From positions 558,001 through 622,000 of the forward strand of contig NW_026570291.1 in NCBI RefSeq assembly GCF_019649055.1: a stretch of DNA of 64,000 nt. Direction: 5' to 3'. Below are positions 239 to 43,400 of this stretch, piece after piece (positions within the stretch are counted from its first letter, which is position 1; every line of letters begins with the position of its first letter). This DNA comes from Paramacrobiotus metropolitanus. Its lineage: Eukaryota > Tardigrada > Eutardigrada > Parachela > Macrobiotidae. A program made the translations under genes and the position numbers. The notes beneath the pieces were generated by a model, which was not told where the DNA came from, did no database searches, and saw nothing but the letters and a program-made list of their open reading frames with translations.

Positions 239-3200
239 TCATTTTACTTGACCTATATCTAGTAAAGAAAATAGCTGCTCGTCCTCTGTAGCGTCGTAAT
301 CAGGAAGCACTCCACTGAACTCATCACTGCTTATTAACCAGTAAGTCAGCATGGCGCCCTTTCCCTGTAAAACCAATGGCAAATGGCGATATTATTGTTA
401 ATTATTTAGATACCTGCGAGCACGCGCAGTACGCGGCGTTATCTGTTTTCAGTGCTATGTATACCTTGACGTCACGTAATCCTCGTTCAACTACCCGATA
501 AATATTGAATTCTTCTAGTAAAACTTTCGTGGCTTCGGATAACTGAATTCGTAAAGGTAAAGATGAACTTTCCATCCTGGAAGCGGTATTGACTGCAAAT
601 CAATAAACAAACGATGTTAACAATAACACAAATGATCTGGACTGAATTTCTAACCACATACCAGTATCACCAAAAAGGCAGTAGCGAGGCATTTTCAGAC
701 CCACTATGCCCGCTATCACAGGTCCGCTGTTGATTCCAATCCGAACTTTGAGCGGCTCCGAAAGTACATCGGAAATCTTGACAGTTACCACTGTGCTAAG
801 AATGCTTAATGCCAGATTGGCAATTTCCGCTGAATGTTTATTCCCGTTACGGTTTGGAATTCCGGAGACGCACATATAAGCGTCGCCAATTGTTTCCACT
901 TTGTACACGTCGGAACTTTGTATTATGACGGCATCGAAAGCTGCAAAACACTATTATAGTATTATACGGAGTAAATTTTTATTGACGTTAAATACTCTTA
1001 CCGGAGTAAAGGTCATTCAAAAGTTTGACAACTTCAAAAGGTGTGTGAGCAGAGGCAAAGGTTGTAAAGCCAACAATATCTGAGAAGAAAACCGTGGCAC
1101 TCTCGAAGTATTCAGGCTCCACTAATTCGCCACTGGCTAGCTTCGCAGCCAAAGCAGCCGGAAGCATATTGTTCAGCAATGATTCTAGACTCTTGGTCGT
1201 CTTCTCCAGATCTCGGGTTCGCTCCATGACTTTTTCCTCTAAATTAAATGCATACCGTTCTACCGCCACCATCATCGTGTCCAAGATGCTTTTCTGCTTC
1301 GGATTGGCCATTTTCAGCTGCTTTAAAATCTCGGAAAACGTCGGTCGATTGTGGGGAGTGGTATCCCACGTGGACCAAATCAGCGCTCCGATTTCATCGA
1401 ACTTCATGGCCAGTTCGTTATAGTACGCCGGGCGCAGTTGCTCCGATTTGATTTGCTTCAGTAGCATTTGCGGGGATTTGTAGAGATCCTCACTGAGCGC
1501 TTTCAGTACGGATTCATACGGTTCACAACCGGCGAACGTCTCATACACGACGACACCGTAGCTGTAGACATCGGCGGATTTCTGCATGCCACCGGCGGCG
1601 TAAACTCCGGCAATCCACACCAGGGCTTCCGGAGCGGTCCAGAAGAGCAGTTTGTAGTAGTCATACTGGCTGATCTCTTGATTCTGCTCGTCTTGAAGCG
1701 CGCTGTGCACCCGCTCAAATGCGTAGAATTCAATTTTTTGGGCTTTATGCAGAGATAGTTGTTCCCAGTCGCCAATGACGACGTTCCACCGGGCATCAAT
1801 ATAGCAGCAGCTTGTTGTTAGCTGACCGTGGATAATGTTTTTCTGATGCAGGTGAGCCATGCCTTTCGCGATGTCGTTAATGATCGAGTTGCGAAAGATG
1901 TTGTCCAGGTTGAACTTTGTTGTGCGCAGAATGTCGGTGAGTCTACCTGTAAAGAATCCAACATTTGCTAGTATTTTACAATTGCAGTTTACTTACGTAT
2001 GTTTTTGTTTCTGGGAGCTAGGTTTTCAATCGCTATTAATAGTGGCATGTCTAAAATAAAATTTCTAACATTTTGAGGCAAGATATAAGGTAGTACAAGG
2101 TAGATACAGTTAAGTGCACCATTTGCATAATTACTGAAAAGTAATTAGCAGTTTGTCAAGTGGTTTCACTGCTATGAAAAAAATTGTACAAACTCTGTAT
2201 ACTGTAATTAGTCCGCAGTTTCCGAAATTGGTAACAATGAATTGACCTTTGTGACTGCGATCACTTATTTTAAAAATTTGACATATCTATATACATAGTA
2301 CATATTTCAATACCTTTTGTAGGACATATACTGACCACGTTCCACCGTTCCTTTCTTTCACAAATTCCAATAAATTTCACGAGATTCCCCTGTGCGATCT
2401 CGTCGCGAAAGCGGACCAACGCAATTTTGGCCTGCCAGGTCAGTTCCTCAGGATTCAAATGCGCGCATAATGGCGTCAAAAGGAGATTATCTCCGATAAT
2501 CTGCTGAATAATTTCTCCTTCAAATCCGGTGGCCATCCAATCGATCATCGTCGAACTGGGGCCAGACTGTTTGGTCTTGGTGCTGGTGACAGAACCTACC
2601 GGCTTCATTTGTGCCTCGATCTGATTATTGGACAAGATGAATGAATTCGTTAGGGCGCTCTTATGTTTTTGATACTTGGAATAACCCAACATTGACAGGA
2701 CGATTAAGACAACCACCATAACAAGAACGATGACAATAGCGGTGGGCAATTTCCACGCGTCACGGGAACCGTTTTCTACGGATATAGCGTACTCCGTCAT
2801 CTCTTTAACGCTCTGACCCTGACAAATCATCTGGTTGAGCGCTTGCTGCTTGACCTGGTTAAAGGCGTTGTCGTTGAGCGGCACTTTCAAGAGATCACGG
2901 GCCACAGTTTGCGCTAAAGGGTCACTCAGTAAATAATCCAGCATACGGTACAGTTCCATGGCGACGGTGCAGTTACGCATGGTTGTTTTACGGATGACAA
3001 AGTATGTGAAGCCGGCAATGGGATAGGTCAAGTCCCCTGGAAGATTGTTCAGATCAGATGTTAATCGCGCACTAAAACTGGGTGACGCATCCAGAGCGGA
3101 TTGAACGTTTCTCAGGTTCGGATAAATCAGGTAGCCGTCTTTATTTTGTAGGCGGGCTTCCATTAGGTTAGAATCTCTTGCATCAGATGTTCCCAAATAC

Positions 3201-4882
3201 CCGATAGAGTACTTGTTCTCCATGATAATAGCGGCTACGCCTCGGCCGGCGTTGCCGCATCGGATTGTTAAACTGGCGTTCCATTTTACCGGTTGTCCGT
3301 TTTTACACCCTGCAATGTTCCAGTTAAGCGCTATAAAATATTACTGTAGGCCAGCATTACAAGGCTTCCATATATTTCTATTGGTTATAAACTTATTAAT
3401 ATAATTAATGACACGAATCTATACTTTGCATATTGTGAAACCTTTTGCAGTTCGCTTTAACACCGTACAATAACAAAAATGCATTTACGCACGTAGTAAT
3501 TATATTAACTGCATGATCGAGAAATGGTGATACGGACCATCGCTAAACCTTGAATAAGTGGTTTTCCACATAGGGCTGAAGCGTCCCAGCGCTCCTGAGA
3601 ATATCTGCGTTGTTCCTGAGCCATCGGCACGTACGACCACGGTGATTGTGCGGTTAACATCACGCAACGCTTCATTGTACATCACAATCAAAGGATCGTT
3701 CCAATAGATTATCGTCCCGTTGAATATACCCACGAGTGCCTCTTGGGAAAGGTTTAAGCATCCAGATAATTCTTGAGAAGCGTTGCTGCAGTTAGGAGAA
3801 AGCTCAGGTAGATTGTACGCCAGCGAGACCGATCTAGAACAAAAATGCCGAATCAAGATTATTTAAAGCAGTACAAAGCTTCGATTCCCCAGCAGGTCAC
3901 AGTTTAGCGGAAATTGTGGACTTCCACCTGATAATAATAATTTTAAACAATAAATGATAATTATAACTTTTAATGTTTTCATTATACCGAATACCTACGT
4001 TTGGATTTCGTAAAATGTTTCTGTAAAGGCTATTTCTCTGTAAGGGATCGAATACCGAACGATAAAAATTGGTATATTTAAATACCCGGGACATTTCAAT
4101 ATGGATTCCCGCTAAGCTATATATAGGTTCAATTTCAGAAATCGTCTTTTGACGTGCGTTATGATAAAAGCATCTTACGCGGCCATTGTAGGAAACATTT
4201 GGAAGTCAGGAAATGCATCATAGGTTGCATTATTCAGCTCCGCATCCGATCCTGCCACGTCGAATTCACCGGTTTTCAGTTTGGCGATCCCTTCTCCGCT
4301 GCCGACGCCCTGATAGCTAAACTCTACTCGCACAAACTTTGAACGGTAGGCTTGATAAACAGGTTTCCAAACCTGCTAACGAAGCAGACCACTTATTTAT
4401 GTACGGCGCGCAAAGGAGTCAGTGATGATTCATTTTAGCGTAAATTGCGTAAAATGCGTTTTAGCGTAAAAAACAAGTGTATAATGAGGTCACACTTGTA
4501 TTGTTGCCGCGTGGTACAGAAACTATGCCAAACCATAACTAGAACATCACAAAGCTCCAAGCCGATCAAAAAACCTGTATGTTCTGACCGTTAAATTCAG
4601 CACCGATGAAATCATCGCAAACTCTTCTAACCACTCAACTGTAAATTATAGACGCCATACGGTTAATAAGCGTCTTGCTGAGGAAAACTTTTTTTTGTAT
4701 TTCTGGTAACAAACACTGTTGTGACAAACACTGTAACCGACCTTATAAACATCAAGGGGCAACGTCGAACCTCCAGCATGAATTAATGTCGATGGCAGTT
4801 CGGCATTCAGAAAATGCTTGGGCACAAATACAAACACAATCAGCAAAACAGCACACTTCCGTTTTTCCGATGCAATCTTCAT
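239..4882 (-). CDS. Receptor guanylyl cyclase with PstS-like phosphate-binding ectodomain (copy A)
   Basis: Predicted single-pass receptor that makes cGMP in response to an extracellular ligand, probably phosphate. Exons by eye: 4882-4742, 4372-4179, 3833-3538, 3309-2314, 1946-1002, 940-662, 592-465 and 364-239. They total 3,105 nt, exactly 1,034 codons plus stop, with GT-AG borders throughout. Order of parts: signal peptide (about residues 1-28); PstS-like domain with [28 protein letters not shown] and [13 protein letters not shown], which match the phosphate-contacting loops of bacterial PstS; TM helix ([19 protein letters not shown]); kinase-homology domain with HGQ and GDW where active kinases have HRD and DFG, so a pseudokinase; coiled linker; cyclase domain with FFSDIVGFT and NTASRM. 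KVETIGD (E) and RYCLFGDT (C) are the residues known to select GTP. Receptor cyclases normally carry an ANF-receptor ectodomain, so this fusion is unusual. Phosphate as ligand is inferred. Confidence 0.92.
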
Positions 4883-6399: not shown

Positions 6400-6510
6400 C
6401 TTGTAGATCTCAATTGGCAAAGTTGCTCCTCCACTGTGTATATAATGCACCGGAATGCACCACCGTATCGGAAATATCAGACTCGTTGTCGCTATTAATA
6501 CGGCGAACAT
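6400..6510 (-). CDS. Alternative first exon, PstS-cyclase type
   Basis: A clean 37-codon exon: ATG at 6510, a hydrophobic leader (MFAVLIATTSLIF), then YIHSGGATLPIEIYK, then a GTATGG donor. The exon ends in phase 0 after IYK, just as exon 1 of copy A ends after VYK, so it can splice in frame to exon 2 at 4372 (VWKPVYQ). It therefore encodes its own signal peptide and its own version of the first phosphate-binding loop (GGATLP versus GGSTLP). It could be an alternative promoter and exon for copy A or what remains of a duplicated gene. Coding potential is clear; use is not demonstrated. Confidence 0.65.
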
Positions 6511-9337: not shown

Positions 9338-12300
9338 TTATTTCACTTGAGTGGAATCTAACAACAAAAATAACTGGGTATCATCTGCAGAGTTATATTC
9401 AGGAAGCACTTCTTTGAACTGATCACTGCTTATTAGCCAATAAGTCATCATCGTTCCCTTTCCCTGAAAAGCAGAAAACAGCTACAAATAAATGTTCATC
9501 AGTGGTTTACTTTTCTAGTTGTACCTTTACACTCTGCATTCCTCGTTCTACCATGTGATAGATATGGAATTCATCAAGCAGTAATTTTGTCGCTTGCGAC
9601 ACCTGGATTCTTAAAGGCAGAGACGAGCTCTCCATGCGGGAAGCAGTATTTACTAGCGAAAACCCGAATGAAAAAGCGTTCTGTCTGCGTAGGAACGTGT
9701 TCTGTAATATCGTGCAGTGTGACAACGACAGTTGCATACCGGTATCACCGAAGAGACAGTAGCGGGGCATTTTCAGACCCACTATGCCGGCTATCACAGG
9801 TCCGCTGTTAATTCCGATCCGAACTTTCAGGGGTTCCGAGAGTACCTCGGATATTCTGACCGACACTACAGTGTTCAGAATACTCAGAGCCATGTTGGCA
9901 ATTTCCGCTGAGTGCTTATTGCCATTGCGCTGAGGAGTACCCGAAACACACATGTAGGCATCACCAATTGTTTCCACTTTGTACACCTCTGCACTTTTTA
10001 TTATCACTCCATCAAAAGCTGCAAATAAAAACCTGGATTTAGAAACATCGTATATTGGAAATAAATAGCCTATACACGCTGCTCATCAGCACAAGTGTAG
10101 CAAAACTGCTGGTACCCAAAAACTCTGATCGATAAAAGCATTGCCTCTTTACCTGAATAAAGGTCATTCAGAAGTTTCACAACTTCAAAAGGCGTATGTG
10201 TAGAAGCAAACGTCGTAAAGCCGACGACATCGGAGAAAAATACCGTGGCACTCTCAGAGTACTCAGGCTCAACCAGTTCTCCATTGGCCAGTTTGGCAGC
10301 CAATGCCGCCGGTAACATATTATTCAGTAGTGATTCCAGGCTCTTGGTTGTCTTTTCTAAATCTCTGGTGCGTTCCATCACTTTCTCTTCCAAAGTAGCA
10401 GCATAGCGCTCCACGGCTACCATCATGGTGTCCAGGATACTTTTCTGCTTCGGATTAGCTTTCTTTAGCTGTTTTAAGATTTCCGAGAATGTTGGACGGT
10501 TTTCTGGATTGGCATCCCATGTCGACCAAATTAACGCACCGATCTGGTCGAACTTCATGGCTAATTCGTTGTAATACGCCGGTCGCAGATGATCGGATTT
10601 GATTTGTTTCAGCAGCAACTGGGGAGATTTGAAAAGGTCATCGCTCAAGGCTTTCAGTATATGTTCGTATAATTCACAACCGGAAAATATCTCGTATATA
10701 ACGACTCCGTAGCTGTAAACATCAGCGGGTTTCTGCATACCACTAGCGGCATACACGCCGGCTATCCAAATTAGCGCTTCGGGAGCCGTCCAGAAGAGCA
10801 GTCGGCAGTAGTCATATTGGTTAATCTCTTGGTTCTGTTCGTCGTGCAAAACATTGTGTATTCGTTCGTAGGCGTAAAACTCAACTTTGTTGGCTTTGTG
10901 CAGAGATAGCTGCTCCCAGTCTCCAACGACGACATTCCAACGGGCATCGAGATAGCAGCAGCTTGTTGTCAACTGGCCATGGATAACGTTCTTTTGGTGA
11001 AGATAAGCCATGGCTTGAGCAATGTCTGTGATAATGGAACTTCGGAAGATGTTGTCCAAATGGAATATTGTGCTGCGTAAGATGTCCGTTAACCTACCTT
11101 CAAAAATCGTAATAACTAAATCACTCTACAGGCGTTCAGCTGTTCATGCGAATGTCGCAGTTTAAACATTTACTGGCCGTCGCAAAATTAAGAATTCGAA
11201 TTCTCCAAACACTTTGGTCGTTCTAATAAATAAAGTTGATTACTCACAACGGTTCCAAATAAAATTACTCGTACTCGTCTTTACTTATATTTGTATGCAT
11301 ACTCGTATAGTGTTACAACAGAGTATCTGTATGTATCCGAAGGCAAAAGCACAGGCTTTGTTACCACGCATTAGCTTTACCTTTAGCGGGACAGATGCTA
11401 ATAACGTTCCACCGCTGCTTTCGCTCACAAATTCCAATAAACTTTAATACATTTCCATGAGCAATGTCATCGCGAAAATGTACCAGCATGATCTTCGTCT
11501 GCCATCGAAGCGTCTAGATGGTAGCATAATGTCGTCAGCAGCAGATTATCCCCTATCATTTGATGCACAATCTCCCCTTCAAATCCCGTTATCCAGTCCA
11601 CCATTTCTCCCGAACTGGGACCCGAATGCCTGGATTTCGTGCTAACGGCCGATCCAACCGGTTTGGCGTGCGCTTCGATGACCTCTGCGGGAACGATAAA
11701 AGAGTTGGTCAGCGCACTTTTATGCTTTTGATACTGCGCAAAACCCCACACGGAAAAAATGATTAAGCCAATAGCCATGACCAGAACGATGACGATGGCG
11801 GTAGGCAGTTTCCAGGCGTCATGAGAACCGTCTTCTAGCGACACAGCGTAATCCGTCATTTCTTTGACATTACGGCCTTGGCATGTCATTTGAAACAACG
11901 CTTGCTGCCTGACTTGATTGAAGACGTTAGCGCTCAGTGGGACTTTCATCAGATCCCGTGCTATAGTCTGCGCTAAAGGATCACTCAGCAGATAGTCAAA
12001 CATTCTGTACAGTTCCATCGCAGTGGTGCAGTTGCGCATAGACGTTTTCCGTATTACGAAATACGTAAAACCGGCGATTGGATACGTTACATTTCCCGGC
12101 AGATTGTTAAGGTCGGATGTTAAACGCGCGCCGAAATCGGGCGCTGTATCGATAGCCGCTTCGACGCTGTGGAGAGTTGGGAAAATGAAGTGACCTTCTT
12201 GATTCTCCAGTCGAGCTTCCATCAGATTGGAATCACGTGCGTCAGATGTGCCTAAGTAGCCGATGGAGTATTTGTTTTCCAGAAGAATAGCGGCTAAGCC

Positions 12301-14237
12301 ACGTCCCGTGTTGCCGCATCGAATATTCAGCGTAGAGTTCCATTTAATTGGTTTTTCGTTGGATTTGCATCCTGAAAATGTTAAACCAGACAATAAATCA
12401 GCGGAGAAAACTTTAAAAGCCGTAAATTACTGTAATACTTTGATTCTGGCTTGCGTACCATCGCTGAATTTGGAATATACTGTTCTCCAAGTATTGCTGA
12501 ATAGCGCCAACGCTCCTGTGAATATCTGGGTCGTGCCTGAACCGTCAGCGCGAACCACAACGATGGTTTTGTTATTGACATTGCGTAAAGCTTCGTTATG
12601 CAGGATAATTAATGGATCATTCCAGTACTGGATGGTTCCGTTAAATATCCCAACAAGGGCTTCTTGGGTTAAGTTTAAACAGCTGGACAGATCATGTGAT
12701 GCCGTGCTGCAGTTGGTCAAAAGCTCCGGGACGTTGTATGGTACCGACACCGACCTGCCATCATATTATTCTATCACCAACTTAATATTATTCTGGTATA
12801 CTTGTCTGTGCAATCAGCAGCATTACTGCAGGACCATTTGGTTCTTTTAATGCTATTATTAATTTTGCCCTCAAAATTCCCTTAACTACCGGCAGTCTCA
12901 CTGTCGCAGCAGTGCACTGCTGCAAGCGGAACGCTCCTAAATAATTTTCAGTACTGGATAACCACCTGTAGAACAAACTGATGTCTCTCCGAATCAAATT
13001 ATTACTTCGAGCGGTTTAACATTAAAATAATTTGACCTTACGGGTGATTAATTTGATGTAAGCCTTTTCACATCTGATATCGCTGATGCACCTAGTAGGC
13101 GGTATGTGCCTTACTCTGCCATTGTGGGAAACATTTGGAAATCCGGAAATGCATCGTATGTTGCATTATTCAGTTCCGCATCCGATCCTGCCACGTCGAA
13201 TTCACCGCTTTTTAATCTGGCAAGGCCTTCCCCGCTACCTATGCCTTGGTAGCTGAATTCTACCCGCACGAATTTAGAACGATGTGCTTGGTAGACGGGC
13301 TTCCAGACCTGCTAATCATACCAACATTCGGTGCATGAATGCGTTTTGCAGAATACATGTATATCAGCCTGCAAAACGGAAAGTGAAAATTCAACCTGGT
13401 TTCTGGAAAAGCTTAAACTAAACAGGTAACAAAATCGTACCGTCGTTATCAAAATTATATTACAGATAGTCAATACTGCGAAGGAAAGAGCTTTGATATC
13501 CATATTTCGAGCAGATCCAAGAATGTACTAGTATTTTTATTTATACTTTGCGTGCATTCGTGACGACATTAAATTTTATTAGTTACTGAAATTACCCTTA
13601 CGACTTAATTATAAACATGCTCTTAGCAAAGGTGAAAAGGTTGATGCACTTCCGATTCCTCGGATGCCTTTTAACACCGGCTAAACTATACTTATCTAAC
13701 CGCAGTACTGTATACTGTAGAGCTGATGTTAAGAGTTTACGGTACAGTATGCAGGATATCATATCATAAATAATTCTATATTGCTGTTACTACTCTACCT
13801 TACCGGTTAGAACACGGCATTTAATTCGCATACCTGCTGTACCGGTTGGATAAATCTGCCAGCATACTCTTACAACTGTAAATAGAAGTGTACGCAATGT
13901 ACATGTATGTACGAGTACAAATAAATTCAGCTACTGCTGATAGTGATAGTTACGGTATGGAGTTCACTAAACTTCGTTTACAGCATAGCTATTAGTAGGT
14001 TTTTATATTTTGTATAATGTAAAAACACTAAAATTAAACTATTATTGAGAATGATTGAAAACTGATACTGCAGTTCACTTATAGGCTGTTCCGCCAGAAA
14101 CAGACCTGGTAGACATCAAAGGGCATTGTAGAGCCTCCGGCACGCACAACTATCAATTGTTGTGTGGTAGCGTCTAAGACCCCGGCGAATATGAGCAAAA
14201 GTACAATCGTAACACAAAAGTCTGCCAAGAAGGCCAT
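9338..14237 (-). CDS. Receptor guanylyl cyclase with PstS-like ectodomain (copy B), frame shifted in exon 4
   Basis: Tandem paralogue of copy A with the same architecture. Exons: 14237-14106, 13308-13115, 12754-12459, 12371-11381, 11097-10153, 10018-9740, 9652-9525 and 9463-9338. Exons 2, 3, 5, 6, 7 and 8 are the same lengths as in copy A (194, 296, 945, 279, 128, 126 nt). Visible motifs: signal peptide [61 protein letters not shown], a TM helix, the pseudokinase HGQ and GDW, FFSDVVGFT, KVETIGD and RYCLFGDT. Exon 4 is 991 nt against 996 in copy A, and near 11,515 the frame shifts just after the TM and juxtamembrane part. If real, only ectodomain plus TM could be translated (a decoy or a pseudogene); an assembly indel is equally possible. 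The exon 6-7 intron is short and lacks an in-frame stop. Confidence 0.88.
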
Positions 14238-32367: not shown

Positions 32368-35300
32368 TCATTTCCGGCCAGAAAAATCGAAGTTTAGAAT
32401 ACAAATATTCATGCGGCGATATTGCACTATTATATTTGTGCAAAAGACGTCGGTGTACCGATTCAACCAAATTTTTCGCCACTGAAACGGAATTAACACT
32501 TTAGGGATTCTTTTAACAATATCCTCTCTTTCCCCGTAATGGCGAATAACACCATTAACTTTCAGGACTAGCGGAAGATGCCAAGCTGCATAAGTGGATT
32601 CTTCGAGCGTAAAATCTCCATCAACAACAGCGTCCCAGATCATGGTATCGCTGCACTCCATTTGCCGATATTTCCAAAATTCCTGTTTGTCGAGAACATC
32701 GTCAGATATCACGCCCTGGGGCCAAAAGCGTTCAATCGGACGCGCCCAAGCCGGGGCTGGTATAATCCTTTCTTCAATGACACCCGTGAGTACTGGCATC
32801 GACACCGGAACAATTTCGATGGCATTGCAGGTAATAGCCGGTGTACTATTGGCTAGCAGCTCAATGGATGCAGATGTACTTTCTGTAGGCTGGGGTATAT
32901 TCGGTACAGCCGTATTTCGATTATTTGTAGTCATACGTTTTTTATTATCCAATGACGGGTCTCTCTTGCGTTTTTTGTCATTGCTTTCATTGACAAATCT
33001 CTCCACAGGTTTCACTACACGCCCGGAACGGGTTTTAAGTAACGGAACTTTTTCCATTTCATCATCCAGATATTTAGCATATTCTGCATCAAGCCTGGAC
33101 GATGCATTGTCAACCGATGGGATAACCGGCGGCGGCGCGGGCGCCTCAACAACTTCGTCAGGACACTCTTTTTCCACACAGTTAAGCAACTTAGGTAATT
33201 GTTCATCTTGTAAAATAGTATCGACGTCGCGGAAATTATAGGGTTTTAATCTACTAGCGTGAACTGTATCAGTTTTGACATTTCCACGCCTATTGCTCTT
33301 AACAACATAGTGCACAGGCCCAGACGGGCGAACGATTTCCCATCCAGCAGCCCAACGGGGCATAAGAGACGGATTCTTGCCCACTTTTCTGTGAAGTACA
33401 TACACAAGAACTTGATCACCTGGTCTATACGTGACATGTGATATATTCGAATCGTAACGGATTTTGTCTTTTAGTTTATGCCGGAACTCCTCGGCGTTCA
33501 CCAGATCCAATGCCTCACCGAGGCCACGCTGCATCTGCTGTACGAAAACATGAGCGAGAACAACGAAGTCGTCTTCAAATGGGAGGAAATTGTTTACAGG
33601 TAATCTCATCTCGGTGCCGTGCATCATAAAGAACGGTGTACGGCCCGTCCGTTCCACTACCTTGCTGTTAAAGGCGGCACAAAGTGCTGGAAGGAAAAGT
33701 TCCCAGTCGCTTTGCTGCTCATTAACATACTTCGCCAACGCCTTTTTAATTTCTCCTACACGTTTTTCAACCAAACCATTTCCCTGCTGGTGACCTGACG
33801 CTGTCGGTGCGTGAGCAACACCGGCAAGAGCTAGAAGCTCTCGAAACATTTCAGACATAAAGTTGCTGCCACGATCCGACGTAATATGAAGTGGCATACC
33901 AAAAACCGTTAAGATGCGCCGATAAAGGAATTGGGCTAGAGTGGCGGCATCATTTCTCTCAACTGCTTCAGCGACAATATATTTGCTCCCATAATCAACT
34001 GCAATAATTATATTTTTGTTTCCAGATTCCGTCGTTGGATGTGCCGGAGCAACATCGATTGCCCACACCAGTCTAGGAGGAACCGTTGGGTTGGACTGCA
34101 GAGCGCCAGCCGGGGCTGTGGCGGGGATATTTGGGCAAGACACGCCGCGCAGGATGCACAGTAATTCTTCACCAACTCAAACATCCGTGGCCAATAGAAG
34201 TACTTATACATCCGCTTATAGGTGGCCAGAACTCCTAAATGTGCTGCCAGAGGCGAGTCATGGTTATCCTGTAGGAACTGGAGACGCCAATGCACTGGCA
34301 CATACATACAGTAGAAAATTTTTCTATTTAATTCAAATTTATAATAAACAACGCCCTGTTTAACGACAAATTTATTTAGGTGTAACTGCTCGTGTTCTGA
34401 CATCTTTTCCTTTTTATTTTCTAGGAGCAAGTGCCATCGAACAATGCGCGCGTCGCGAGACTGTTCTTCAGCCCAGTATGAGGCTTTGTCATCCGTAATC
34501 AACTTCTGCACCTTATCTGCATCAAAGGCTTTCATGTCCTCTTCTGATATGGCCTTCACTTCAGCCGACATCATTTCAAAGCGGATATCCACGTAGTCTC
34601 TTTCCAGGACTGCGAAGCAACACTCCATCATCGCTGCATCACCGGCGAAAGGGTAAGTTTGCCGATAATCAAACTCGATATCTGAGTCATCTGAGTCGGG
34701 TTCTGGTTGTTCTCCTGGATTTTTACTTAAAGCGTCAGCAATAACATTCTCTTTTCCAGGGATATGCACCGGTTTGGTGTTAAATTGCTGTATATATAAT
34801 GCCCACCCAAGGCGGCCAGCAGCATCGCGCATATTATTAAGGAACACCAAAGCCTGATGATCAGTCTGGACTTCGAACTGATAATCTGACAGGTAATGTT
34901 TCCATTTCTTTAAAGCACAGATAACTGCGTAAGCTTCGAGTTCTGTAGGAAAATAAAGTCTCTTCTGCGTCTCTGTCAATTTGCGGCTTAAGTATGCAAT
35001 AGGTCTCCAATTTGTCGCCACGTCCGTTGGCTTATTCCGAGGACATTGCATAAGCACCGCGCCGACAGCGATAGTGCTGGCATCCACCACAACACGAGAC
35101 AAGGCTTCTGGATCATAACGGGCCAGGACCGGCGCCGTAACCAAGGCTTCCTTCAATTTTTCAACTGCATGACACTGGTCAGTTCCCCATTCAAAAGTAA
35201 CTTTTTTAGGAATAAGCTTTTGAAGAGGCTCCGCAATCTCTTGGAAGTTCTTAATGAATTGGCGATAGTATCCTACCATGCCCAAGAATCTTAAAATGTC

Positions 35301-38300
35301 TTTTTTGTCTTTTATAGGGCCAAATTCCTTAACAGCCTGGATCTTCCCTGGATCAGTGCTTATACCAAACTGATCGACCGTATGTCCCAAAAAGGTAATG
35401 GAGTTGACAAACAACTCTGTTTTTTCAGGACTGATCGTCCAACCACATTCCTGGAGCCTGAGAAATAGCTCCCGTAAATCCCGCATATGATCAGCAAGGT
35501 TTTTACTAAAGACGATAATGTCGTCTATGAACACGAGCACGTTTCTCCACTTCATGTTCGCAAGTGTCAAATCCATTGCCCACTGAAAAGCAGAAGGCGC
35601 ATCCTTCATCCCAAATGGTAATACCTTGTATTGAAATGTGAACTCTTCGCCAACCATCGTCGTTTTACATCGGTCTTCCGGTTTAATCTTAATTTGCCAA
35701 AAGCCACTCTTTAAATCGATTTTACTAAATACCGTTGCTTTATCTAAAGCGTTGAGAATATCATCCACTCTGGGGAGCGGGTAACTGCTACCCATCAATC
35801 TCTCATTTAGTTTACGAAAGTCCACAGTTAAGCGCCGGGATTTGTCCTTCTTTTTTACTATACAAATAGGACTTCCCCACGCAGAGTTAGTTGGCTCGAT
35901 TATGCCGTCTTTAATCATTTCCTGTGTTTTAGCCTGGAGCCATTTCCTATCCTCAAACGACGTGCGATACGGAGGAGTTCGAACCGGCAAACTCGTTCCC
36001 GTATCAACAGAGTGCTCATATATAGTACAACATCCGACTGGACGCGCTTTCGTTGGTAACACAGATTTTGCTTCGTAAAATATGGCCTTTAATTCTTCCT
36101 TGCTCGGACAAATATCTCCAACCTTAATTTTTGCAAAGGTTTCCTCTGTTTCAGGATCAATGACGCCGGGAGCGGCTGGTTGTAGTTGCACAGCCATGCA
36201 TTCGTTAATTTTATCCGGTATCGGAGCGCCCTTCTCATCGCGTGAAACGCCGCACGTTTCATCATGGTAACTCTCCTGGAACTCCGGAGAGTCCATCTGG
36301 TACACTGCATCGACTAACGCGACTTCACCAAGGTTTGTTTGTTCACTGAGAACCAATGGTTTGTCTGACACATTTACTACACAGACTCTGCAGTTACCAT
36401 ATTCATTCAATGTTAAAACGCCGTCCAACAGTACTGCATTTTTATTTGTTTCCGGTATTTTGCCTTCGTACAGGAACGGCTGAGTGTACAAATACTCATC
36501 CTGGAATTCCATAAACTGTTCGTCCGACATTGCCGTAGTTGCGCGAATAATTCCCTGCGAATGGGGCTGGATTATTACCGGTGAGGCCGGAAATAGCTCC
36601 ATCTTGAAACAGTCGATAGGACCAGGTTCAGGCTCGAAACTGTAGATATCATGTTCTGAGTAATTAATTTCTGTTTGTGCCTGTGCTTGTTTCAGGTGGG
36701 CGTCTCTGTACGCCAACTCTATGGCATCTTTGGTGTACACACATGCCGGAATTTCTGTGGACTCACGGACGTCCTGTGATCGCTTGGGAAGATTTTTGGC
36801 CACTGGGTGCTGTTGGACCGTTTCAGCAGACATTTGACTTGCCGCCTCCCGCTCTGCATATTCGCGTTTAGTTCTGCGGCTGTAACTAGACTTTTTACGC
36901 CGGGGCGAACTCCTTCCTAAACTTTCCGTTGACGGTTCATAGTTTCGTACGGTAGGTTGCGCTGCATTAGTCGCCGTAGGCTCTCTCAATGCCTTCTGTT
37001 TCTGAATTTCGTTCCAGATTTCCCACTGTTCATTAATGTTTACATCCACCGGCGTATCATATGTTGCCCTAACGGTCGGAGGGACCAATTCCGACATTTG
37101 TTGACTGATCAGGACATGTTGTTGCGGTGAGTTACAAACCGTTTGAGAATTTATCTCCCTATGCTTCTCCGCCTGTCTGTCTTCATAGGAGAGCCGACAC
37201 GGGCCGATGTTAATGGGCTGCATGCCATCAGCTGGGATAAAGCTACCGTTCTCAAATTCACCTACTGGTGCCGGGTTATCCACTGAAAAGGTAACTTTGC
37301 GTTTCCCTGTGGCTTTCTGTGCCTTTAATTGTTCTTTCCGTTTGGTTAATTCGAAATGTCGCCGGTCATTCACGGAATTTCGGCATGTGTCACAATTCTT
37401 TTCGTACCGTTCAATTTCAATGATACAGTCGGGCCAATAAAATAATTTCACTAAATACGGATACAATTTCTCATGGGAGCCATACGCTTGCTTATGAATT
37501 AAAATTTCATGGAAGCAGGCGATTAGCTTTTGTCGCCATTGGTGCGGTACGTAAATCCTCGGACAAGCACCAGAGTGATCGGGCACTCTGCACAGAATTC
37601 CTTCACAGATCATCAGTCTATTGACTTCATATTTAGTATAATTAGTATTCGCATGCGACGGTTTCTTAAACATTTTGTACCACATCCGGCTATCTACACA
37701 CATCTGTTGCGTTTCACGCCAGAACTGTGGGTCACGGAACATTTTCTCTGTAGGGAATAAGCCCTTATCCTGCGGCCTATCCATCGGCGTCATCCATCTT
37801 TTCAATTCCGGATTCCGTGCCATGTACGACGGATAATCATGGACTTCATCAACGTCTCTGCGGTCGCGTTCAACAGGTATAACATTCAATAATTTATTGT
37901 TAATGCTGAGACATTCAACTGATTTAGAGGATTTGTCCAGTACACCCATGTATAAGTATTTTGCTGCAGGGTGTTGCTGTAGTACAGCATCAAGCGAGGA
38001 AATTTGGATGGGAAGTTGTAAGGGATTATCACCCCCACGAACTTGACTGGAGCCAGAATGAGGCACAGGACTGACCGATGCCGAAGACGAGGTACTTGCA
38101 CTACTCGAGCTGCTTGCCGGTGACGGCGGAGAGATTTTTTCTCGTTTAATCTGCGGCTGGGACGGCGCTTGTTCTCTCCCCCGCGAACTTGACTGCATAT
38201 TATTTACAACAACTTCACCGCCTCCCCCACGAACTTGACTTTGTTCTGGGTTTTTCTCCGTCTTAATTTCCTTCTTAATTGCAGGTCGGATGGGTTCGTC

Positions 38301-39370
38301 AGCCACCGAAGCTGCCTTGGGCAAATATTGCCTGATCATTTCCTGAACCACATTTCGCACAAACTCATCTCTTTGATCTGATCCGGACTTAGCTGGTGTA
38401 GCCCGCACGGGCACAACCTCTTCGACTTTGGCTTTTACCGGTACATGAGCGGTATTTACTTTGTTTACTTGAGACGGCTGAGTTGAGCGAGGCCACGACT
38501 GTTTGGCTTTCTGTAAGTGCAAAATACAAATTTCTGGGTATGCCTTTGCAAGGATTAAATGGGCCGACTCATAAGGGACAAACTTTGCCTCTTTAGCGAC
38601 ACCGATACGCTCAGTCAACATTAGCGCAGGAATCGATGGCGACGGCTTGACTCCCGGAGGAATTTATGGGTCGAAATCATGCGACCGGATGACATCCGAC
38701 ATAAGGTGAGTTTCACGGCGTAAGAATGCCGGTGCCTTAGGCTGTCTACCCGAGAGGCGCCAAGTCATCGTGTTCAGATCTAACACGAACGGCTTCATTG
38801 CCAGGAAGTCTGGACCCAAAACTACGTGGTCCCTATCAAAAGTAGAACTGACCAATATAGCGTGCTCGAAGGCCATCCCGAATTCGGATGGTGACCACTA
38901 CCGAAAGCGGTTCAATTAATTGCCTTCCTTGGTACGCTGTATGTACAATTCTTCCTTTAACGTGGTCAGGACAACGGTGAATATTTAATTTGAGATCTTT
39001 GGCCATTTTTAGGGACATGACCGATATGCTGGAACCCGTATCCAGCATGGTTTTCACTTTCTGGTAATTAATGTCGATTACAGAATACCAAGCCTGGGCG
39101 TCCAGAGTTGGCAACAAACAGACATGATCTGCCAACGGATACTGGGAGAAGTCTTGGACTTCCGTTTTATGACGCTGTGGCGTTGGCGAAGACAAGCCGG
39201 CAGGTAGGTCCAATTCCATCATATTGATTTGCTGGGGATTGTTGTACCGAGCCAACAATTCTGCAGACTGTTCATACTGGCGAGGGAGTACATACTGATT
39301 TGTACAACCTGCTCCAGGGTGTAAACCATGGCAGCGGAAGCAAATTTCAACTCCGCGATTTGTTCGCCAT
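32368..39370 (-). CDS. pol: pol region: zinc knuckle, aspartic protease, RT, RNase H, integrase
   Basis: Ty3/gypsy-type pol of the giant LTR element. Readable parts in order are: a CCHC-like zinc knuckle (CFRCHGLHPGAGC, near 39,330-39,370); aspartic protease with MLDTGSSISVMS (about 39,040); a long linker containing an extra HHCC zinc module (37,380-37,550); a dUTPase-like-fold linker (YGNCRVCVVNVSDKPLVL); RT with VDFRKLN, KIDLKSGFWQI, LPFGMKDAPSAFQ and a FIDDI catalytic box (about 35,520); RNase H (VVDAS, TDHQALVF); the integrase HHCC finger (HLGVLATYKRM, then CASCAAC, about 34,150-34,250); the integrase core with its D-D-E residues (AIDVAP, TSDRGSN, GLVEKR); and a GPY/F-like C-terminal module (RWAAGWEIVRPSGP). 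It looks largely whole, with a small number of frame interruptions or programmed shifts. Confidence 0.92.
37380..37550 (-). other. Second HHCC integrase-type zinc module, N-terminal to RT
   Basis: Within the pol frame, residues near 357-415 read HEILIHKQAYGSHEK, then LFYWPDCIIE and NCDTC. The pattern of His residues, a FYWP motif and CxxC matches the integrase zinc-binding domain, of which a second copy sits in the normal place at 34,150-34,250 (FYWPRMFELV, CASCAAC). It looks like an internal duplication or captured module. Confidence 0.6.
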
Positions 39371-40442: not shown

Positions 40443-43400
40443 TTACAGGGCCGTCCTGATGATACTGTGGATCAAAATTTTGTACATTTTGGACAGGCTG
40501 CGGTTGCGGGAAACTGGCATCATCGGATTCATTATCTGCATGGGGACTGGCATAGCAGCTTGCATCGGAATGGGCTGTTGAAATGTCTGCGCGAATTGTA
40601 CAGGTTGTGGGTCAACAAACTGCGGTTGTTGATACACAGGAACAGGGACAAACTGCGGCTGAGCAACATTCAGGATAGGCTGTATTGGAGCCGAATTCTG
40701 TTGTTGTGGAATCACCGTTTCAGTATACGAGCGGGAATATCCTCCGCGATTATTCCCATAATTTCCTCGGCCTCCCCGAGTCGGGTAATAATTCCCTCTC
40801 TGAGACGAGCCGCCGCGGCCGCCTCGATTCTCGTAATTATTATTATTGTTATTACTACCGGCACTTCTTGGTCCTGCAGATACATTTTTCTGTGCTGGCT
40901 CCGGCACTTTCTTATCTTTATTCATACGTTTCCACAGCTTCTCACACTCCTGTAATTTCTTTTCAAATTCTGAATAATTTTTAGGAGAGGCGTTATAGAT
41001 TTCACGGAACCATGCCGGCCGGTGACCCTCCAGAAGTGCTGTACACCCTCCAGAAGTGCTTCAACTTGCTCCTCATCGGATATCTTCAATTCATCAAACC
41101 ATGGAAGAAAACTATCCAGGTAAGCGCGAACCGGCTCATAAAAATCCAGTTTACGATTATTCATTTTTCTGCGAATGTCGGCTTTAGAAAAAGAGCCGTT
41201 AAAATGTGCGACTATTGCAGGTTTAAAGAAATCAGTCCATGACTTTCCTTTATTATCCCTCCAGAACTTGTCGAACTATTGGAAAGATGCTCCCGTAAAT
41301 GCACCGGTTACTCTACGACAAGTAACCTCATCGTCCCAATTGTTTGTGGTACGACACTGTTCTACGTTCATGAGCCACTTTTGTATTTTTTCGGGATGGG
41401 AGTCATCAAAGGTAAGCAATTTCATACTTCCCACTTTATCACCTCCTTTCTCCGCGAGCTTAGCTATTAATTCAACAACACTCTCTTGTGTAAGTGCTGT
41501 TCTGTCAGATATTTGAGTTTGCTTAATTAGCCATTCTTCCAGCTGAGGATTTCTGGAGACAGAATCATTACTGGCCGTACTGCTGGGACGGCGGATGGGA
41601 TCATAATCTAGCGGGATGCCATCCATTAATTCATTTTCTGTATCCGAGCCATCCCTGTTTTCAGCTCCACGTGTCTGACGCATATCTTCTGAAGTTTTTC
41701 TAAAGACTTCCTGACGAAGATCTGTGGATTTGCCTTTTTTCTGTTTAGACGTTGACGTTTCTCTTGGAATCTGACTCTCTGAAGACGAGCGCTGTACAGA
41801 GTGAGTTTCCGAAAACTCGACACGTGACTCCTGTCTAGGTTTCCTCAAAATGCCGGCTGGGTTACCTGCGGCAGCTGCAGGCTGTTCATTGGATACCGAA
41901 AAGTTCTGAGGATCAAACAGTGAAAACTGAGACGGCCGCAAGACATCTCCTGTCGCTACAGGTGCTTCCCTTTCAAAGTGCCTCTGACCGCCTCCAAGAG
42001 CAACACCTGGGTTTCGAAATTCATGGAGCTGAGTGCATGGTTGCCGGAATTCCTCCTCCATTTTAGTAAGTTGCTCCTGCTTTTCAAACCACTGATCTCG
42101 AAGCTGCCTATTTTCTTCATACAACCGGTTACAGTTTTCGGACTTTTCGTACGCCGCGGCTTGTGCTTCTTTCTTAGCTTTAACAGCTTTTTCGCAATTA
42201 GCGCATTTATTAGAAGTCTTAAACTCTTCCCATTCGGTTTGAGCTTTTCGAATATTTTCTCTTTCTGAATTCAATAAACCTTGAAGCCGGTCAATTTCTT
42301 TCTGACTTGTTTCATTTTTTTCCTTAGGTATATGCATCAAGCCAACTGAGGATAACTTGTTGATCTGAACGTTCGCGTTCGTGAGATCTCGCTGGAGCGT
42401 ATCCTCCCTGTCCTTGGCGCGCTTCTTTTCATCGTCTAAATCCTTGGACAACTTCTGAGATAAGTTTTGCGCATCCAGTAAGTTCTTGCCGGTCAGTTTA
42501 TGTGCGTCTTTTTCTGTATTGAAATCTCTCAGAGCCTTCGTCAACTTCAGCTCCAAATCACTTACTTGCTTCGCTGTATCAGGGAGTGTCTGTGCCTTAA
42601 AACCATCGATAGTAGTTCTTGCGGCCGACAATTCCCTCTGCACGTCTTCCAGCTGTTTCTCTAAATGTCGGTTCATATCAGTTAAACCGTCTTTTTCATT
42701 TTTCATACCATCATAAGCGTTCTGCGCATTTTTATTGGCCTCCCTTAACCGGGCTAAATTATCACTTGCAATCCGTAATTCGTTGGTCAGCCGATCATTT
42801 GCTGCTTGTTCGTTCTCAAACTTAATCCGCATTTCATTGAAATCATTTTGAAATTTTGATTTCTTTCCGCTTCAACTCGAGCGTCTAAAGACATCGAGTT
42901 TCCCATTTCATCGACTTTTAGTTTTGTAGTTGCTATCCATGTACGCAGACCCTGGAGTAGCACGGGCATCGTCTTCCGAGCGACTAATCCGACATCCTGA
43001 TCGGTTTGAGTGCTTGCCAACATTTCATCCACTTCCTTTGCTTTGGTAAGGAATTCTTCGTCGGGTTGCTCGAAATCTTTTTCCGATACAAAGTCGTGTA
43101 ATCTTAACTGAGATGGGTGAAATGACATTGCACCACCCATAATACTCTTCTTTCTTGCAGATGCCTCCGGAGCTGCACACTCGTTTTCGCCAAAGGCTAC
43201 ATGAACTGGAGTATCATCCTCTGATCGACTATCCGACTCATCCATATCAAAATCTGGAGGCAGCTGGTCTTTGTCGAGCAAGCTTTCCTCGGAAAGTGGT
43301 TCCACCAGTTTGAGTGGCTCTGTGTTCGGCTCACTTCGGGTAATTTGCTCGAATTTATCGTTAGGTTTAACTTTTGCCGCTACGGCTCTTTTGGGTCGTT

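Follow-up and report, generated by a model that had tools for sequence, protein, structure and literature searches.

What does an animal receptor guanylyl cyclase sense when its outer half resembles the bacterial phosphate-binding protein PstS, and how did it come by such a domain? The question is raised by a gene, here called copy A, in a 64,000-nucleotide stretch of the tardigrade Paramacrobiotus metropolitanus (contig NW_026570291.1, C71, positions 558001–622000; hereafter the window), which was analysed together with the assembly to which it belongs (170 Mb in 533 contigs). The reading that we favour from its sequence, with some reserve, is that copy A encodes a cell-surface receptor for inorganic phosphate, probably chemosensory, which belongs to an ancient class of single-pass guanylyl cyclases in animals and has cyclic GMP (cGMP) as its output.

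A PstS-type ectodomain with a conserved phosphate pocket

The initial annotation of the locus had described the ectodomain of copy A as PstS-like, and profile and structure comparisons bear this out. Pfam assigns PBP_like_2 to residues 32–320 (E = 4.6e-23), with no ANF_receptor among the matches up to E = 0.1. As a control, ten upstream reading frames were taken from nine further cyclase loci of this genome, and five of them match ANF_receptor (E ≤ 0.01; four above the curated cut-off). A search of solved structures with the ectodomain returned the PstS entries 2z22 (E = 2.8e-31 over 310 residues) and 1ixh (E = 5.3e-29), the latter from E. coli. All four PstS loops named in the initial annotation are present and the pocket residues align. 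In a profile alignment, copy A keeps seven of the eight phosphate contacts of E. coli PstS: Thr10, Ser38 and Asp56 correspond to Thr40, Ser72 and Asp90, and Arg135, Ser139, Gly140 and Thr141 to Arg180, Ser184, Gly185 and Thr186. The single change is Phe11 to Leu41, at a contact made via the backbone.

The seven pocket columns have a mean identity of 97%, versus 58% over 334 ectodomain columns, in 14 chosen bilaterian rows (copy A, its paralog copy B, the Hypsibius protein P0003 and 11 spiralian proteins; the count is without three pocket-losing tardigrade paralogs, partial rows and rows lacking a species name). Among 100,000 random seven-column sets drawn from these rows, none was equally conserved. 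The pocket is kept in all 11 named spiralian proteins, with a serine replacing Thr10 and, in two of them, a serine replacing Thr141, and its residues are kept, where covered, in copies A and B and in P0003.

A single gene model from signal peptide to cyclase

The eight-exon gene of 1,034 codons that had been proposed, with all borders in phase, was reproduced exactly: its introns are all GT–AG, their phases are consistent and the sole stop codon is terminal (Table 1). Residues 106–1034 are identical to the NCBI protein P0001 ('guanylate cyclase 2G-like [Paramacrobiotus metropolitanus]'). This public model begins at an internal methionine; exon 1 and the larger part of exon 2 are missing from it, and with them the signal peptide and three pocket loops, the first ones of the domain. 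Exon 1 of copy A is backed by the first exon of copy B (14237..14106), which encodes RAGGSTMPFDVYQ before the same intron position; its signal-peptide-like start is different from that of copy A, yet it carries the same GGST-P loop. A signal peptide and one transmembrane segment were read by eye in copy A, and in exon 4 (3309–2314) one open frame runs from the end of the PstS domain through the transmembrane segment into the beginning of the kinase domain. An alternative model of nine exons and 1,059 residues was ruled out by P0001 and Hypsibius P0003, both of which use the later exon-4 acceptor (between FSD and GC) and have no extra 18-residue exon.

On the inner side of the protein, Pfam finds PK_Tyr_Ser-Thr at residues 514–753 (E = 2.5e-23) and Guanylate_cyc at residues 819–1004 (E = 7.2e-63). 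The kinase-homology domain has a glutamine where the aspartate of HRD is expected, and is thus without the kinase catalytic residue at that position. Aligned to NPR-A, the cyclase domain has all six scored residues (two metal Asp, the guanine Glu and Cys, an Asn and an Arg), including the GTP-selecting Glu and Cys that had been noticed initially. The same six residues are complete in Hypsibius P0003 and P0037 and in Owenia P0010. The solved structure closest to the inner half of copy A is NPR-A (E = 1.4e-103), and GC-C was also matched. To judge by these residues, a working cyclase appears to sit below a working phosphate-type flytrap in copy A.

The fusion in other organisms

The initial annotation had suggested searching related genomes for the same fusion, and it is present in Hypsibius, molluscs, annelids and a nemertean; in all, it occurs in ten named species of four phyla (tardigrades, molluscs, annelids and nemerteans) and in a probable ichthyosporean. 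A protein search with residues 30–400 of a nine-exon draft of copy A matched at least four proteins, namely P0001, two Hypsibius fusions and P0004. With the pair of PstS domains from P0004 as query, the search gave at least 33 proteins, P0004 included, 13 of which have both PF12849 and PF00211: those of the molluscs Gigantopelta (three), Haliotis (two), Pecten, Solemya and Liolophura, of the annelids Owenia and Paralvinella and of the nemertean Lineus, together with P0032 and P0005. A third search, with an alignment as query and a strict cut-off of E = 1e-100, gave five matches: P0001, Hypsibius P0037, P0038, P0039 (P. metropolitanus, cut short) and the bacterial PstS P0040. P0005 (EukProt, Nk52) is a receptor cyclase whose PstS domain is present twice in tandem; it probably comes from the ichthyosporean Chromosphaera perkinsii. 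P0004 is 67% identical to it and ends inside the kinase domain. No arthropod, nematode or vertebrate was among the matches listed in these word-based protein searches, which does not imply absence from those groups.

Many spiralian members are publicly named natriuretic-peptide or retinal cyclases; those with a decayed cyclase and a kept pocket are P0006, P0008, P0011–P0016, P0018 and P0020. The public name of P0037 from Hypsibius exemplaris is glycosylphosphatidylinositol (GPI) ethanolamine phosphate transferase 1, that enzyme running into a PstS receptor cyclase, and two adjoining genes have probably been merged here by annotation. In protist or environmental proteins, PstS-type ectodomains that are apparently double also sit on other parts: a cyclic nucleotide phosphodiesterase (P0019), a class C seven-transmembrane (7TM) part (P0021) and PARP (P0007). 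P0022 and P0028 likewise have an apparently double ectodomain of this type, with a C-terminal part that is cyclase-like by eye. Three PstS-type loci on viral contigs are placed among the bacterial rows.

A probable ancient origin of the fusion

In a 63-row tree of ectodomains, 20 rows form a clade (support 99/93) made of 17 named-bilaterian rows with P0025 (for which a cyclase is not known), P0032 and P0038. The six tardigrade rows group at 100/100, and 24 rows including P0004 and P0005 at 95/85. The 33 bacterial rows split from the 30 rows of eukaryotic or unassigned source at 100/100, and a constraint placing the tardigrade ectodomains with the bacterial ones is rejected (log-likelihood difference 39; approximately unbiased (AU) test, p = 0.013). 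The bacterial rows were collected by scanning for two conserved peptide patterns; of 100 confirmed loci the best 80 were retained, so this sample is biased to close relatives. The tree is a 97-row tree minus 34 long, odd or redundant rows; dropped before the 97-row stage were 11 domain fragments of <235 residues, the partial same-species rows P0001 and P0039, three rows of P0034/P0035 and, out of the 60 bacterial loci beyond L041, the 30 with odd numbers.

The kinase–cyclase halves give a concordant picture. A 34-row tree separates 18 fusions (16 named bilaterian and two further ones) from 16 others at 100/100, the latter being NPR-A, GC-C, 13 other cyclase loci of the same genome and P0005. 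Forcing the tardigrade fusions together with those 13 loci is rejected (log-likelihood difference 138). The long-branch row Pmet_RGC_L112 was left out of this tree, and an earlier tree with it gave the same split at 100. P0005 falls outside the fusion clade in the free tree, and joining it to the clade is not rejected (p = 0.609). Since both trees group the bilaterian fusions, one ancient fusion fits best, and the sequences are best accounted for by a PstS cyclase that existed already in the ancestor of tardigrades and spiralians. We tentatively put forward a wider scenario, which is possible though we would not yet lean on it: a PstS receptor cyclase in the ancestor of animals and their unicellular relatives, which is still a direct phosphate sensor in tardigrades and spiralians, most spiralian copies being cyclase-dead, phosphate-binding partners.

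Proposed mechanism and alternative readings

By analogy with other flytrap receptors, the most likely mode of action is a phosphate-driven closure of the flytrap that changes the activity of a dimeric cyclase. Inorganic phosphate would bind in the cleft through the seven residues aligned above, from Thr40 to Thr186, and close the two lobes of the PstS-type Venus flytrap; this closure would rearrange the receptor dimer, and the change would travel through the transmembrane helix to the pseudokinase and on through the signalling coiled coil, altering cGMP production. In this scheme we infer phosphate as the ligand, the flytrap motion, the dimerization, the direction of the effect and the sensory role. 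PstS binds phosphate near micromolar concentrations and body fluid holds far more, so that sensing of the outside water fits better than internal homeostasis. The receptor cyclases of Caenorhabditis elegans offer a comparison for outside sensing by sensory cells (PMC1435932).

Several observations weigh against this scheme, above all as a description of the whole family. Pocket residues are lost in three of the six tardigrade ectodomains scored (Hypsibius P0002 and P0037 and P. metropolitanus copy E; the divergent copies F and G lie outside this scoring), and phosphate therefore cannot be the ligand of every member. The kinase-homology domain is very divergent. The cyclase site retains 0–2 of the six residues in ten of the 11 named spiralian proteins, Owenia alone having six, and P0005 has four, with the Asn and Arg replaced (the alignments being rough in decayed regions); cGMP output is thus not general in the family. 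Judging from these residues, the cyclase of many mollusc, annelid and nemertean members is probably dead and their phosphate site kept. As the pocket is kept where the cyclase was given up, binding seems to be selected, which suggests partner or decoy roles in spiralians.

We may wonder whether the kept pocket reads something other than phosphate, such as arsenate, phosphite, phosphonate or a small organic phosphate, or whether phosphate is a constitutive structural ligand and a protein partner the regulated signal. The changed pockets of half the scored tardigrade copies show that ligands can drift, and the phosphate of body fluid would saturate a site with the affinity of PstS. However, copy A has every side chain that sets phosphate specificity in PstS, among them the Asp through which protonated phosphate is preferred to sulfate, and PstS buries phosphate fully and leaves no space for an organic group; we hold this reading to be unlikely, albeit worth keeping in view. 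The spiralian proteins, with their pockets kept above cyclase sites reduced to 0–2 residues, raise a further one, namely that ligand-regulated cGMP is not the main signal of copy A and that it serves, for instance, as a scaffold or pairs with another cyclase; the decayed spiralian members must signal in some such way. The intact cyclase sites of copy A, Hypsibius P0003 and P0037 and Owenia P0010 speak against it and make it improbable.

The two remaining readings concern the architecture and its history. The initial annotation had raised the possibility that a bacterial or algal PstS was captured, and a recent capture in the tardigrade lineage could appeal to the foreign genes that tardigrades were reportedly once suggested to have acquired and to the seven of eight pocket residues that match E. 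coli. It does not survive the trees: the bilaterian ectodomain clade (99/93), the split of the 30 rows from the 33 bacterial ones drawn from the pattern scan (100/100), the rejection of the tree joining tardigrade and bacterial ectodomains (p = 0.013), the separation of the kinase–cyclase halves of the 18 fusions from the 16 others (100/100) and the rejected grouping of the tardigrade fusions with the 13 other cyclase loci (log-likelihood difference 138) leave it very improbable. Because the fusion is common to other bilaterian phyla and both of its halves group, any bacterial capture would predate the tardigrade–spiralian split. Finally, adjoining PstS and cyclase genes might have been wrongly joined by gene prediction and not form one transcript, a suspicion that the NCBI model may feed, as it lacks exon 1 and the larger part of exon 2. 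Yet exon 4 alone spans the end of the PstS domain, the transmembrane segment and the kinase start in one frame, and the same fusion is predicted in nine other named species, so that we find an artefact scarcely credible.

Paralogs and genomic neighbourhood

In the assembly, PF12849 has eight matches in six genes, and a protein search added a seventh gene (on C22); in each of these seven PstS-type genes, pieces of a kinase or cyclase domain follow downstream in the same orientation, with weak scores in the last two genes. The protein search of this genome used the nine-exon draft as query and went exon by exon, so the counts are lower bounds. Two members, copies A and B, lie in the window, and copies D and C some 78 kb away; E is on C4, and the divergent members F and G are on C39 and C22, respectively. 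The ectodomains of A and B are 78% identical over 296 columns, and B keeps the pocket Ser, Asp, Arg, Ser, Gly and Thr. Over 343 ectodomain codons, the proportion of nonsynonymous differences (pN, 0.122) lies far under that of synonymous differences (pS, 0.77; synonymous sites saturated), which argues for strong purifying selection on the ectodomain.

Copies D and C are a duplicated pair of A and B at C71:637000–649000 (L010, L011), D being 97–100% identical to A in the exons compared. The frame is broken in exon 4 of D and in the kinase part of C, through either assembly errors or decay of the copies, and the pair itself is either a recent segmental duplication or an assembly error. No free PstS gene is among the PF12849 matches listed in the assembly, in which no search for transporter genes was made. 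The introns, the orthologs in a second tardigrade and the lack of a listed free PstS gene make contamination unlikely.

An orphan first-exon-like piece, with a signal-peptide-like start of its own, lies upstream of copy A (Table 1) and is also found upstream of copy D (L010:6195). From its sequence, it could be an alternative first exon of copy A, with an in-frame splice to exon 2, or a duplicate relic. Elsewhere in the window, long frames on the minus strand at 32371–38663 carry reverse transcriptase, RNase H and integrase domains (a retroelement), and a frame at 41279–42871 has a weak coiled-coil match. Genome-wide, at least 200 Guanylate_cyc matches were obtained with 150 of 849 candidates scored, a very large cyclase family.

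Table 1. Features of copy A and its surroundings, in window coordinates
Feature	Position	Strand	Remarks
PstS-type receptor guanylyl cyclase gene, copy A	239..4882	minus	8 exons, 1,034 amino acids
Exons 1–4	4882-4742, 4372-4179, 3833-3538, 3309-2314	minus	
Exons 5–8	1946-1002, 940-662, 592-465, 364-239	minus	
Exon 1: signal peptide and first PstS loop	4742..4882	minus	AGGSTLP; Thr40 = E. coli Thr10
PstS-type (type 2 periplasmic binding protein) ectodomain	2822..4801	minus	residues ~28–373, exons 1–4
Pocket residues Ser72 (GVGSGEG) and Asp90 (GSDAEL)	4244..4300	minus	exon 2; aligned to Ser38, Asp56
Pocket loop RADGSGT	3611..3631	minus	residues 180–186, exon 3; aligned to Arg135, Ser139, Gly140, Thr141
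Single transmembrane segment	2678..2749	minus	residues ~398–421; read from sequence
Kinase-homology domain (pseudokinase)	1219..2503	minus	HGQLTTSC at catalytic loop, GDW replacing DFG
Guanylyl cyclase domain	332..1119	minus	residues 819–1004; 6/6 scored residues present
Orphan first-exon-like piece	6400..6510	minus	MFAVLIATTS..HSGGATLPIEIYK; GT donor after AAG
Paralog B, same architecture	9341..14237	minus	~4.5 kb upstream of copy A

Comparison with known systems

With NPR-A and GC-C, copy A shares a single transmembrane segment, a kinase-homology domain, a coiled coil and a class III cyclase with the GTP-type Glu and Cys. Unlike NPR-A-type receptor cyclases, it has an ectodomain of PstS type (PBP_like_2) and not ANF_receptor, and the inner half of the fusions forms a clade of its own apart from NPR-A, GC-C and the 13 other tardigrade cyclase loci. 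With bacterial PstS it has in common the domain family and seven of the eight pocket residues, and the two columns of the C-terminal Cys pair of the fusions hold Cys in 35 and 24 of the best 80 bacterial PstS loci. In contrast to bacterial PstS, the fusions are membrane-anchored and joined to a cyclase, with one or two additional Cys pairs in tardigrades; copy A is not a free periplasmic subunit of PstCAB and has no transporter partner within the protein.

The ectodomain of copy A also matches 5j1d weakly (E = 0.005), presumably a structure of DING type. Unlike DING proteins, copy A has a presumed mature start without DINGGG, and it is genome-encoded and contains introns. The shared feature is that DING proteins, which are reported from eukaryotic tissue, are PstS-like phosphate-binding relatives; their genes are discussed as missing (PMC7922408, PMC2225411). 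The fusions would supply the eukaryotic PstS-type genes that the DING literature lacks.

P0019, P0021, P0007 and P0009 (Palpitomonas) likewise have PBP_like_2 joined to membrane and signalling parts, whereas their inner domains are other ones and their ectodomains branch outside the 24 cyclase-fusion rows. With its cyclase, phosphodiesterase, class C 7TM and PARP fusions, the PstS-type domain thus appears as a eukaryotic receptor module. Periplasmic binding protein domains of types I and II (PBP-I/II) are counted among the sensor domains that signalling systems of prokaryotes and eukaryotes use in general (PMC1592074).

No description of PstS-type receptor cyclases was among the matches listed in the open-licence literature. 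Which receptors sense phosphate directly in animals is not a settled matter. The control of extracellular phosphate and its effects on cells have been called poorly understood (PMC3592877). The family of copy A provides a concrete, assayable candidate for direct phosphate sensing in animals, some of the species with related fusions (Hypsibius, Owenia) being suitable for laboratory culture, and it reveals a mollusc, annelid and nemertean set in which the cyclases are probably dead and the phosphate site is kept. Compared with the receptor cyclases known so far, the type 2 periplasmic binding protein ectodomain would represent an ancient alternative to the ANF domain.

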